From Erysipelotrichaceae bacterium (GTDB lineage Bacteria > Bacillota_I > Bacilli_A > Erysipelotrichales > Erysipelotrichaceae), in contig JAUNEN010000024.1 in assembly GCA_030525525.1 (NCBI GenBank), positions 5,522 to 38,266 of the forward strand: a DNA stretch of 32,745 nt. The letters are read 5' to 3'. Every line of letters starts with the position of its first letter. The first letter of the stretch is position 1. Both the position numbers and the translations under genes were made by a program. Under the pieces are notes generated by a model. The model ran no database searches and had not been told where the DNA came from. It saw nothing but the letters and a program-made list of their open reading frames with translations. Shown one piece after another: positions 24,316 through 32,745 of the stretch.

Positions 24316-24348
24316 TAAAAGATCCTGAAGAAACAGATCTTCAGGATC
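24313..24348 (-). terminator. Terminator of the signal-peptide membrane protein gene
   Basis: On the minus strand a perfect 11-base-pair stem (24348-24338 with 24331-24321, 6-base loop) is followed by TTTTATTG. It lies 12 bases after the stop at 24360 and just ahead of the BlaI -35 box, insulating the two units. Confidence 0.85.
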
Positions 24349-24359
24349 GCTGCATGCAA

Positions 24360-25241
24360 TCACATGGGAAAGACCGGTATGGCTGACATCGCTAACAGTC
24401 CCAGAACATAAGATGAAACATTTGCGGCGGCAGAACAGATGAACGGATTTTTCAGCTGTTCACGGGGAATCCATTTTCTGTAGATCAGCCATTCCGCCGC
24501 AATGATGACAAGCTCTGCGATCAATAGTGAAATCAGATAGACCGGTGTGCCGCTTCCGTATTTCATGGTCGCTGCGGAGAGGATGCCGTTAAGGAAAAGC
24601 TGTGTGATGATATTGGCTAGAATCAGCACGATTCTGCTCTTTGATGTATGTTTCATAAATATCATGGAAACAAGATATTCAATCACAATTGTGAGGATGA
24701 TTCTTGCAAGGATTCCTGAAAAGGAAGGGAATGCAGAACTGACATCCTTAATGATGAGACCGTCTTCGGAATATGTGCATTGGTAATGAGTCCGGAATGC
24801 TTTTCTTGTATATGTTTCTTCAGAAAGAAGGAACTGACCGGAGTCTTCCATGTAAATCAGGATTCTAAACTCCTCCGGAGGCCAGTATCCGAATAGATAT
24901 TCTTCCGAGCACTTTGTGACAACACCCCAGAAATAACAGGGTGTGCCTGCTTCTCTTTCCTGCCGTGCTTTCTCACTGATCGCTTCGTAAACTTCCCGGC
25001 TGATTGTGCGGGTTGCGAAATAATCATCATCGTGTTCCTTTGAATCCCATGGGCTGTTAGGGCCGTAATCACTGACTGTTGAAAGAACAGTCACATAGGA
25101 GTTTTCCGGAAAACCTTCACATTGAATGCTGAGAGAAGGTTTCGGACCGGAGTCCGCATGAACAGGAATCATTGCACAGAAAAAGAACATGATCAGAACG
25201 GATAATTTGCAAATGATCTCTTTATTAATGTTTGTTTTCAT
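24360..25241 (-). CDS. Membrane protein with signal peptide and extracellular domain, unknown family
   Basis: A 293-residue protein: an N-terminal signal sequence (about 1-29, ending PVHADS), an extracellular acidic domain of about 145 residues with several cysteines and aromatic residues (PCYFWGVV, YLFGYWPPEEF), and a C-terminal half with about four hydrophobic helices (about 176-290). I do not recognise a family. Similar sensor-like proteins often stand near BlaI/M56 or XRE genes, but its own terminator and promoter separate it from them. No ribosome-binding site is obvious before the ATG at 25241, so translation may be weak or leaderless. Confidence 0.75.
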   Translation of the reverse strand: MKTNINKEIICKLSVLIMFFFCAMIPVHADSGPKPSLSIQCEGFPENSYVTVLSTVSDYGPNSPWDSKEHDDDYFATRTISREVYEAISEKARQEREAGTPCYFWGVVTKCSEEYLFGYWPPEEFRILIYMEDSGQFLLSEETYTRKAFRTHYQCTYSEDGLIIKDVSSAFPSFSGILARIILTIVIEYLVSMIFMKHTSKSRIVLILANIITQLFLNGILSAATMKYGSGTPVYLISLLIAELVIIAAEWLIYRKWIPREQLKNPFICSAAANVSSYVLGLLAMSAIPVFPM

Positions 25242-29641: not shown

Positions 29642-29941
29642 TTATTTAAAGAGCTTTTCAGCAATCTTGATGACACCGGCACCATCCATCAGGCCGTATG
29701 TGCGCATGTCGATATCGCTGACAGGAATGTCAGGGAAAGCATCCTTGACTTTCTTCAGTGCATAGCGGACCTGCGGGCCGATCAGAATTGCATCGGATCC
29801 TGCGCCTTTGGCGAGTTCATCGAGTGAGAATGCGGCGATGTCATAATCCTTTCCGTCTTTTTTGGCGATCTGCTGCATTTTTGTGACGAGCATGCTGGTG
29901 GACATACCTGCACAGCAGAAAAGTGTAATTTTACGGCTCAT
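29642..29941 (-). CDS. Orphan PTS IIB component, lactose/chitobiose type
   Basis: A 99-residue protein closely matching ChbB/CelA-type IIB: ITLFCCAGMSTSMLVTKM, with Cys9 aligned to the phosphorylated cysteine of ChbB, and AILIGPQVRYALKKVK further on. IIB passes phosphate from IIA to a sugar entering through IIC. No IIA or IIC gene is in the window, so it either serves a transporter encoded elsewhere or has a regulatory role. It is preceded by a 19-base GTATAC-type palindrome that occupies the ribosome-binding region; the ribosome-binding site itself is poor. Confidence 0.9.
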   Translation of the reverse strand: MSRKITLFCCAGMSTSMLVTKMQQIAKKDGKDYDIAAFSLDELAKGAGSDAILIGPQVRYALKKVKDAFPDIPVSDIDMRTYGLMDGAGVIKIAEKLFK

Positions 29942-29951
29942 TGTTTTTCCC

Positions 29952-29970
29952 GGTATACAAAATGTATACC
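29952..29970 (-). promoter_or_regulatory. GTATAC-type palindromic operator before PTS IIB
   Basis: GGTATACAAAATGTATACC is a perfect palindrome with 8-base arms and a 3-base centre. It ends 10 bases before the start codon. GTATAC-centred dyads are typical binding sites of GntR-family (HutC-subfamily) sugar regulators; no such regulator gene is in the window. Confidence 0.6.
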
Positions 29971-30411
29971 ATTTCCTTTCCTCCCTGTGTTTAGTGTCGG
30001 CAGGGTGCGACTTTTTGGCTGTTCACAAATTATCGGGTGTGAATCATACGCTTTCTGTTTTTTCTATGATGAATTCTGCCGCTTCATCTTTTGAAAACAT
30101 ACAGACAGCAAAATCAATTTTTGTTTGTAATTGCTGAATGGAAAACTTCCGGATGATTGGAAAAAGAGGATGCGATATTCTTCTGTTTTCACTATAGCAC
30201 ATGCTTGCAGAGAAAAGGGGATGTTTGCTTCAGGAAAAAGCAATTCTTATATTTCGGGGATGAAATAAAAAAAGAAAATCAGCAGATCTCAATGAAAAAC
30301 TGCTTGATCCTGATCGGCCCGATGCGTGTTTCAGATCATTTGATCTGCAGGAGTATTGCGCTTCGGTTTTGTGTGTAAAATGTACAACAATATGCAAAAG
30401 GAGTGATTGCG
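29971..30411. other. Intergenic region upstream of PTS IIB and the aldo/keto reductase remnant
   Basis: These 441 bases should hold the PTS IIB promoter (minus) and the promoter of the short remnant at 30412 (plus). A TAAAAT box at 30376-30381 and the ribosome-binding site AAAAGGAG (30396-30403) serve the latter. A minus-strand 52-codon frame (30044-30202) reads partly like protein (FSKDEAAEFIIEKTESV) but has no ribosome-binding site. Nothing else is supported. Confidence 0.4.
30044..30202 (-). pseudogene. Possible short coding remnant upstream of PTS IIB
   Basis: A 52-codon minus-strand frame. The C-terminal half (IDFAVCMFSKDEAAEFIIEK) has plausible protein composition, the N-terminal part much less so. 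It lacks a ribosome-binding site and lies in the same orientation as PTS IIB. It may be the tail of a lost neighbour gene or chance. Confidence 0.2.
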
Positions 30412-30444
30412 ATGAAACAGCGTATATTCGGAAAAACCGGCTGA
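30412..30444 (+). pseudogene. Ten-codon aldo/keto-reductase-like remnant or leader peptide
   Basis: A strong ribosome-binding site (AAAAGGAG, 30396-30403) precedes ATG and the peptide MKQRIFGKTG, then TGA at 30442-30444. K-x-R-x-x-G-x-T-G is how many aldo/keto reductases begin, but nothing of the rest follows in any frame I could see. The stop codon lies inside a perfect hairpin (30436-30456). It is either a relic whose body was deleted or a real leader peptide. Confidence 0.45.
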
Positions 30445-30456
30445 GCTTCAGCCGGT
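30436..30456 (+). repeat. Perfect hairpin over the remnant's stop codon
   Basis: ACCGGCTGA (30436-30444) and TCAGCCGGT (30448-30456) pair perfectly around a 3-base loop. There is no U-run directly after it, so it is not a standard terminator. Confidence 0.7.
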
Positions 30457-30462
30457 CATTGC

Positions 30463-30487
30463 GCATACTTTGAACAGGTATGCTTTT
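30463..30487 (+). terminator. Weak terminator-like hairpin
   Basis: GCATAC (30463-30468), a 9-base loop and GTATGC (30478-30483) are followed by TTTTCC. The stem is short, so termination would be partial. It stands between the remnant and the CotH-family gene. Confidence 0.4.
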
Positions 30488-30580
30488 CCTTATTAAAATG
30501 ATGCACTGCATATGTACGCGAACATTGTTCAGGTGATATAAAAAAGGTAGAAATCTCAGATAACAGGAAAGGACAATCAT

Positions 30581-32745
30581 ATGAAAAACATCATTCGGTC
30601 ACGAAAGCTTTTGTGTCTGATTCTGACGCTTGTAATGGCAGTGAGTATTCTGCCCGGCAGAATCGTCAAAGCTGAAGAAGTAAAACCCGACAACGGCATT
30701 CCTGTGGTTTATCTCAATATTGATGAGTCGCAGGGGACAATTGATGAAATGCTGACAAGCCCCGATCATACCGCATATTGTTACGGGACATTCAGAGTGG
30801 ATGTACCGGAAGGTTTCCACTATTGTGATTTCCCCGACCTTTCATGCGAAAGCATTTCGGAACTTGCCATGAGCATCAGAGGCAGAGGAAACTCGACATG
30901 GCGCAATGCGGACAAGAAACCGTTCAAGATCAAGCTCGACAAGAAAACAGATGTGTTCGGTTTAGGAAAAAACAAGCATTGGGTATTGATTGCCAATGCG
31001 ATGGATCCTTCCCTGATTCAGGACAGAATCAGTGCCTGGCTCGGCGACCAGATGGAATTTGAATTCACCCCGCGCGGTGTTCCTGTGGATGTTGTCATGA
31101 CAGGTGAAAATTTCGGAACGAAGTATCTGGGAAGCTATTATCTCAGCGAAAATGTCAGAGTTGATACAAACCGTCTCGAAATTGATGAACTGAGTGCAGA
31201 AGATACTGAAGAGCCGGATATCACAGGCGGGTATCTTTTACAGAATGCACTTCAGGTCAGAGCAGGCTCACCCGATCGTTTCTATACAAGCAGAGGTGTT
31301 GACTGGGCAACTCATACACCTTCATTTGATACGGAAGAAGACGCAGACCACTCTGAAGAAGTCAGCCTGAACGGACTGAGACAGGAAGAAAACTTCACGG
31401 CTGCAGAGCTGCAGGATGCCTATGAAAATCCTGTCCAGCAGACCTATATCCAGAATCATATCCAGAAGATTGAAGATGCACTCTTTGCCGGAGGCACCTC
31501 ATACCGTGATCTCATGGATGTCGAGTCTGCCGCAAAATACTGGCTGGTGAATGTTTTTGCAATGAATTCAGATGCCTATGTCACCGGCAGTACTTATATC
31601 TATAAGAAGCGTGATGTTGACGGAGTTACCGGCAAGCTTTACTGGGGACCGCTGTGGGATTTTGACTTTGCCTGGAAAACAAGATATATCACCGACGGCT
31701 TTGCTGTTCCTCATGAATGGCTCAAACCGATGTTCTGCGACAGAGGTGAAGGCGGATTTGTCGAAGAAATCAGAAAATACTGGCTGCAGTTCAGAAGTGC
31801 TGTTGTTCAGCTGATTGAAAAAGGCGGCATCATCGATCAGTATTATGAAGAAACAAAGGCATCCGCAATTGCCGATCTGGCTGTCAATCCCAAGGATGAT
31901 GAGGAATTTGATTATCAGACAGCTGTTGAAGATCTGAAGACATGGATCACGGAACGTCTTGCCTGGGTGGATGAACATATTGATGAAGTTGATCAGCTTG
32001 CCCATGAAGTCATCCTGATGGATGGTGAAGAAGTCTATGCGAAGTATTACAAAGCCTTTGATGAAAATCTTGATCTGACCGGTGCGGCTCCTGAAAAAGA
32101 AGGATATATCTTCATCGGATGGACAGATGAAGAAGGAAATATTATGCCGGCTGAATTCACTGCTGAGAAAGATATGGTTTTAACTGCTCAGTATGTACGT
32201 GAAGAAGATGCGACCAGAGCAGAAGACATCGCTTTCCGTAAAAATAATGAAGTCATGTCATATAACCTTCATGCGCTTGTCTATCAGATCGATTATGAAG
32301 TCGTACCTGCCGATGCACAGGACCGCACAGTCATCTGGAGCATGGCGGATGAATCCGATGCGTCAGTTGATGAAAACGGCCTGATCACATTCAAAGCACC
32401 GGGTGTATACAAAGTCAAAGCATCACTGAAAAACGGTGTGGAAAGATTCTTTACTCTGCATGTGATTGAAGGTGAACTTCCTGAGCCGGCTTCCATCAGG
32501 GCTGAGCAGGAAACAGTTGAAATGAAAGTCGGAGAATACTCCGTCATCAGTCTGATCACCGATCCGGAACCTGCGAAAATCTGGGAATATGGCTATGAAT
32601 CCGAAGATGAAGCAGTTGCTGCGGTTGACCGCTATGGCGTTATCACCGCCGTCGGTGAAGGCAGAACAAGAATCAAGGTCAGTGCCAAATCATTTACAGA
32701 TGACAGTGTGGTCGAAACATTTGTCACCGTGATCGTGGGTGATGC
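30581..32745 (+). CDS. Secreted CotH-kinase-family protein with Ig-like repeats, 3' partial
   Basis: The frame runs from ATG 30581, after GGAAAGGA, to the window end: 721 codons without a stop. Residues 1-31 form a signal peptide (cleavage after VKA). The CotH domain spans about 36-470, with SIRGRGNSTWRNADKKPFKIK (98-118) and YWGPLWDFDFAW (354-365); these match the conserved family motifs, including the metal-binding Asp pair. Residues about 475-540 form a beta-repeat of the Listeria/Bacteroides type (GYIFIGWTDEEGNIM). Residues about 545-630 and 636-718 are Big_2-like Ig domains (WSMADESDASVDENGLITF; VAAVDRYGVITAVGEG). CotH proteins are atypical kinases that phosphorylate secreted proteins. 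More domains and perhaps a wall anchor should follow outside the window. Confidence 0.9.
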   Translation, partial: MKNIIRSRKLLCLILTLVMAVSILPGRIVKAEEVKPDNGIPVVYLNIDESQGTIDEMLTSPDHTAYCYGTFRVDVPEGFHYCDFPDLSCESISELAMSIRGRGNSTWRNADKKPFKIKLDKKTDVFGLGKNKHWVLIANAMDPSLIQDRISAWLGDQMEFEFTPRGVPVDVVMTGENFGTKYLGSYYLSENVRVDTNRLEIDELSAEDTEEPDITGGYLLQNALQVRAGSPDRFYTSRGVDWATHTPSFDTEEDADHSEEVSLNGLRQEENFTAAELQDAYENPVQQTYIQNHIQKIEDALFAGGTSYRDLMDVESAAKYWLVNVFAMNSDAYVTGSTYIYKKRDVDGVTGKLYWGPLWDFDFAWKTRYITDGFAVPHEWLKPMFCDRGEGGFVEEIRKYWLQFRSAVVQLIEKGGIIDQYYEETKASAIADLAVNPKDDEEFDYQTAVEDLKTWITERLAWVDEHIDEVDQLAHEVILMDGEEVYAKYYKAFDENLDLTGAAPEKEGYIFIGWTDEEGNIMPAEFTAEKDMVLTAQYVREEDATRAEDIAFRKNNEVMSYNLHALVYQIDYEVVPADAQDRTVIWSMADESDASVDENGLITFKAPGVYKVKASLKNGVERFFTLHVIEGELPEPASIRAEQETVEMKVGEYSVISLITDPEPAKIWEYGYESEDEAVAAVDRYGVITAVGEGRTRIKVSAKSFTDDSVVETFVTVIVGD

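Follow-up and report, generated by a model that had tools for sequence, protein, structure and literature searches.

The window, by which we mean the whole stretch of 32,745 nucleotides that was analysed, contains a spacer of 639 bp (29942-30580) between a PTS lactose/cellobiose IIB gene on the minus strand, which diverges from it (29642-29941), and a gene on the plus strand encoding a CotH domain as well as a Big_2 domain (30581-32743), which is cut because the window ends at the contig end. Within this spacer, the Shine-Dalgarno site AAAGGAG (30397-30403, plus strand), matching the anti-Shine-Dalgarno target over 7 nt, precedes an open reading frame of ten codons on the same strand (30412-30444; ATG at 30412-30414, TGA at 30442-30444), whose product, MKQRIFGKTG, resembles the start of an aldo/keto reductase (AKR). 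The TGA falls within the left arm of a perfect 9-bp hairpin (hairpin 1, 30436-30456), 30448-30456 being the exact reverse complement of 30436-30444, with the three-base loop GCT between them; this hairpin is terminator-like on the minus strand. The original prediction of a Shine-Dalgarno site followed by MKQRIFGKTG and by a stop codon placed within a perfect 9-base hairpin is thus confirmed to the base. A second hairpin on the plus strand, GCATACTTTGAACAGGTATGC (hairpin 2, 30463-30483), is followed by TTTT(CC), together forming a weak terminator-like site (30463-30487); overlapping coordinates are occupied by a promoter-like sequence, TTGAAC-18-TAAAAT (30470-30499, plus strand, 9 of 12 consensus matches), possibly a separate promoter of the CotH gene, although the scan of the spacer region returned three sites of this kind against 2.1 in shuffles.

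As regards membership in the AKR family (PF00248), a start of the type M-K-x-R-x-L/F-G-K-T-G is present, and the complete barrel with its catalytic residues is absent, the frame stopping after ten codons. The first ten residues (MKYRTLGKTG) of a 380-aa AKR of the congener G013 were used as reference, picked after the peptide MKQRIFGKTG had been seen; the four solved AKRs shown align with this genus protein from its residue 1 or 4. The ten-codon product reaches a BLOSUM62 score of 35 against this reference, which is matched by no other ATG in our own-genome sample (the window plus 40 stretches of the same genome; 691,285 bases with 32,107 ATGs on both strands), the next-best ATGs scoring 31 and 29, both at PF00248 matches. 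Among 2,000,000 Markov-simulated starts a single one reaches 35, i.e. 5e-7 per ATG, a rough figure from one draw. A look-elsewhere control, in which 520 short Shine-Dalgarno ORFs (10-40 aa) were compared with the starts of 551 ORFs of at least 150 aa, likewise ranks the ten-codon ORF first with 35, the runner-up scoring 32; as a library of all families would be far larger than these 551 starts, the evidence is moderate. The typical AKR-like beginning claimed for this peptide is borne out by its position at the top of the 32,107 ATGs and of the 520 short ORFs. A loose tblastn search with the whole G013 AKR on 30000-30700 placed the first ten residues of the query on 30412-30441 as the best match, with 7 of the 10 identical and E 0.16, the next match having E 2.6; with default settings, four AKRs yielded one chance match of 8 residues (E 2.1) on the same segment, the ten codons remaining unlisted. 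No AKR remnant beyond the ten codons was found by tblastn at 30000-30700.

The codons for GKTG, GGAAAAACCGGC, consist of an A-run and the CCGGC arm, and could also be supplied by a terminator on the minus strand. Since the A-run and GC arm of such a terminator would also give GKTG, only MKQRIFG is independent evidence of an AKR, and terminator sequence may account for some of the likeness. Perfect hairpins of the class of hairpin 1 (stem of at least 9 bp, loop of 3-8, at least 5 G+C) occur 24 times in the 691,285 bases of the own-genome sample, compared with means of 5.6 in 5 Markov simulations and 6.7 in 20 simulations, and an A- or T-run accompanies 22 of these 24 versus 19 of 134 simulated ones; the perfect hairpins in the sample are mostly intrinsic terminators. 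Hairpin 1 is like most of them in its GC-rich 9-bp stem and the adjacent A-run, but unlike typical intrinsic (Rho-independent) terminators its U-run would fall on the minus strand, and no gene of that strand ends there. A T-run is absent on the plus strand, where AAAAA stands ahead of the stem; on the minus strand the full stem is followed by TTTTCC, or by TTTTTCC when the tail is taken to include the last A-T pair. Having an A-run only, hairpin 1 therefore points to the minus strand. A terminator scan demanding 5 T omits it and a looser rule accepting A- or T-runs includes it; the fold of the 86-nt plus-strand RNA is only mildly special (z -1.97, 8 of 200 shuffles being equally stable).

These counts, together with the A-run of hairpin 1, also argue for a chance look-alike, i.e. 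an ordinary spacer with a minus-strand terminator or remnant, in which the A-run and GC arm happen to encode GKTG after a ribosome site and an ATG that are themselves fortuitous. A nearly identical stretch, AAAAACCGGCTGGGTTTCAGCCGGT, in the congener G021 (L039) points in the same direction, as does the fact that no source reductase was found. This explanation, which we regard as a serious possibility, has to account for the first seven residues, MKQRIFG, which also fit an AKR start, and for the observation that no other sampled short Shine-Dalgarno ORF fits any gene start as well. Furthermore, a minus-strand ORF ends within 12 bp to the right in four of the five intergenic hairpins of the own-genome sample that have an A-run only, whereas no minus-strand gene ends beside hairpin 1, its right neighbour being the plus-strand CotH gene 124 bp away.

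The same A-run and GC-rich 9-bp stem would suit a working minus-strand terminator directed against antisense transcription from the CotH region, the ten-codon ORF being incidental. We consider this unlikely, because upstream of hairpin 1 no convincing minus-strand gene is found, the 116-aa minus-strand ORF at 30230-30580, which runs through the hairpin, looks spurious from its sequence, and the sole promoter-like site on the minus strand at 29900-30700 lies beyond hairpin 1. Hairpins 1 and 2 together may be read as back-to-back terminators stripped of their genes. Elsewhere in the window, a perfect 11-bp hairpin with an A-run ahead of it (24321-24348) lies 12 bp from the end of the minus-strand ORF 24360-25241, which has no Pfam match at E 0.001, and looks like the terminator of that ORF.

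The spacer occurs only once in its own genome, with no further copies, which rules out a repeat element. In the 69 congeners (70 genus genomes including its own), matches to its segment 30160-30590 do not exceed 50 bases, and in 271 other genomes of the family (272 including its own) those to 30280-30590 do not exceed 37 bases; at most 9 candidates per genome in the genus search and 2 in the family search were scored, so that diverged copies may escape. Among 315 genomes of the order, the pattern MKQRxFGKTG is found in the window's own genome and absent from the 314 others. A parent reductase was looked for among the 29 PF00248 matches of the own genome; none of the starts read, those in 15 of the matching loci, is MKQRxFGKTG, some of the start picks being poor. 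A 21-base match near an AKR on contig C175 of the same genome (E 0.065) was dropped, as the start of that gene differs, and a 27-base match to the ten codons, located in G004, runs antisense within a 249-aa ORF that belongs to a different gene. A mobile origin was also rejected: neither 72,556 plasmid records nor 50,697 phage records gave a match to 30100-30700 at E 1e-5, and the AKR-start pattern has no match in viral contigs.

In searches restricted to the genus, the IIB gene has relatives of 86-90% identity in five congeners, and CotH is present in 18 of the 70 genus genomes, including its own, the best one elsewhere being 72% identical. A scan of genome contigs gave a sole CotH relative (L045, 56% identical), from a record titled Lachnospiraceae bacterium MAG. 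An intact reductase in relatives with the same flanks, which according to the original prediction would speak against a leader role, was encountered in none of 15 loci compared, which came from relatives and from the own genome; the IIB and CotH genes of the relatives have other neighbours, and no AKR adjoins them. AKR-like proteins occur in three of the 15 loci, about 2.5 kb (L115) and 8.4 kb (L117) from IIB and 3 kb from CotH (L083); none of them starts with MKQR or adjoins either gene.

The congener read that retains most of the window neighbourhood is G014. Its IIB and CotH genes both lie near an alpha-galactosidase gene, in an order unlike that of the window, and the IIB gene (L118) is located between an AraC-type gene, with DUF1848 behind it, and a gene which Pfam describes as ROK/IIB. 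The best match of the own genome to the AraC protein of G014 is 27% identical. Followed from the IIB side, the spacer homology with G014 stops at about 30097, and the spacer containing the ten codons is found, among the genomes searched, only in the present one, with a gene order differing from G014. In G048 (L119), an ORF with a start judged by eye to be similar to that of the G014 ROK/IIB gene occupies the same place; beside the IIB gene of the window (29642-29941) no gene of the ROK/IIB type was seen.

A junction which is present in no other genome searched, in an assembly of 212 contigs with 4.3% contamination, raises the question of an assembly or binning artefact, in which the contig would join unrelated pieces at the spacer. 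We consider this very unlikely, as each of the flanking genes has relatives within the genus (up to 90% identity for IIB and up to 72% for CotH in the genus-only searches) and the neighbourhood is partly common to G014.

The arrangement of a good ribosome site, a short ORF ending in a hairpin and a further terminator-like hairpin before the gene recalls a leader peptide or attenuator, in which translation of the ten codons would govern the hairpin and the expression of CotH, as the original prediction had proposed as one of two options. In the predicted folds of 86 nt and 106 nt the ATG pairs with a CAU behind the hairpin, and this pairing has a probability of 0.69 in a stretch of 206 nt, but falls to 0.06 in one of 261 nt; in these models it is the one structural point favouring a leader. 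In the upstream regions (330 bases) of nine CotH homologues, however, neither the mini-ORF nor a 9-bp hairpin was found in any case; for L076, L080 and L083 no ribosome site was found, so that their start is uncertain, and L084 is a paralogue of the own genome. Hairpins 1 and 2 lie side by side and, with pair probabilities from 0.76 to 1, are predicted to form together, so that they are not alternatives; a ribosome at the stop is predicted to melt hairpin 1 and to leave hairpin 2 intact. Nor does the ten-codon ORF contain a repeated run of regulatory codons, and no known RNA family reaches the Rfam gathering score in the window, the weak matches at 29930-30700 belonging to unrelated snoRNA, miRNA and sRNA families. 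One fold showed long-range pairing between the leader and the start of CotH; this was rejected, its probability being about 0.03 at most. Attenuators of the trp type are alike in having a short ORF with a ribosome site before a terminator-like hairpin; unlike them, the present locus has no regulatory codon run and no mutually exclusive hairpins, and the arrangement is absent upstream of the nine homologues. On these grounds the proposed leader role is unsupported, and we regard it as improbable. To judge from its title, the one paper found to join CotH, leader peptide and attenuation concerns the sil locus of streptococci. Less probable still is a recent control element, in which a dead AKR start fused to a terminator hairpin would have been co-opted as the translated leader of the CotH-family gene, its ten-codon ORF overlapping a minus-strand terminator and sense translation meeting antisense termination in one element of 21 bp.

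The best single reading, which we favour tentatively and with a confidence somewhat short of even, is that of a species-specific, non-functional relic of an AKR start; it is preferred over the chance look-alike, which follows close behind. A deletion or rearrangement would have removed the gene body and left the ribosome site and the first ten AKR codons in the 639-bp spacer, the cut end of the former gene now lying in the terminator-like hairpin 1, where the frame would halt at the TGA of the left arm. If the promoter upstream still works, a product of ten residues would be made; transcription would then probably end at or near the terminator-like site at 30463-30487, and CotH would be read from its own promoter. 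The AKR-like start at the top of its sample, a spacer that is in no other searched genome and a gene order unlike that of G014 count for the relic, and against it count the absence of an intact AKR with these flanks and the fact that a single deletion does not account for how G014 differs. The anatomy, the AKR-like character of the start and its absence from the relatives searched are shown; as the search met no intact reductase between these flanks, the scar is something we infer. The former AKR gene, its loss and all transcription are likewise inferred. Of the deletion scar put forward in the original prediction, the start, which is hard to obtain by chance, and the rearranged, species-specific spacer thus stand, and the intact counterpart is missing; strict conservation of the ten codons and the hairpin, which would have spoken against a relic, is not seen, as the element is in no other genome searched. 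Compared with bacterial gene remnants and pseudogene scars, the locus is alike in presenting a gene start without a body, a lineage-specific spacer and a rearranged neighbourhood, but here the parent gene is deduced from ten residues only and no intact counterpart was found. Among papers on gene remnants, those listed deal with pseudogenes and spacers.

Most likely, the feature either is the ordinary residue of a lost gene or resembles a gene start by chance, and is not a switch for the next gene. As a relic it would be a small and ordinary case of gene loss that leaves a start signal behind, and it would matter only if left-over starts proved to be reused as leaders. Annotators should refrain from naming the ten-codon ORF as a gene and, on present evidence, from describing CotH as leader-controlled.

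At the other end of the spacer, a palindrome, GGTATACAAAATGTATACC (29952-29970), separates the ribosome site of the PTS-IIB gene from its ATG. A hairpin whose arms are similar but whose loop is different is found in the same place in three of the five congener IIB genes compared (L118, L115, L116); the remaining two (L117, L119) have no such hairpin, and their ribosome site directly adjoins the ATG. The palindrome may represent a repressor operator or a hairpin controlling translation.
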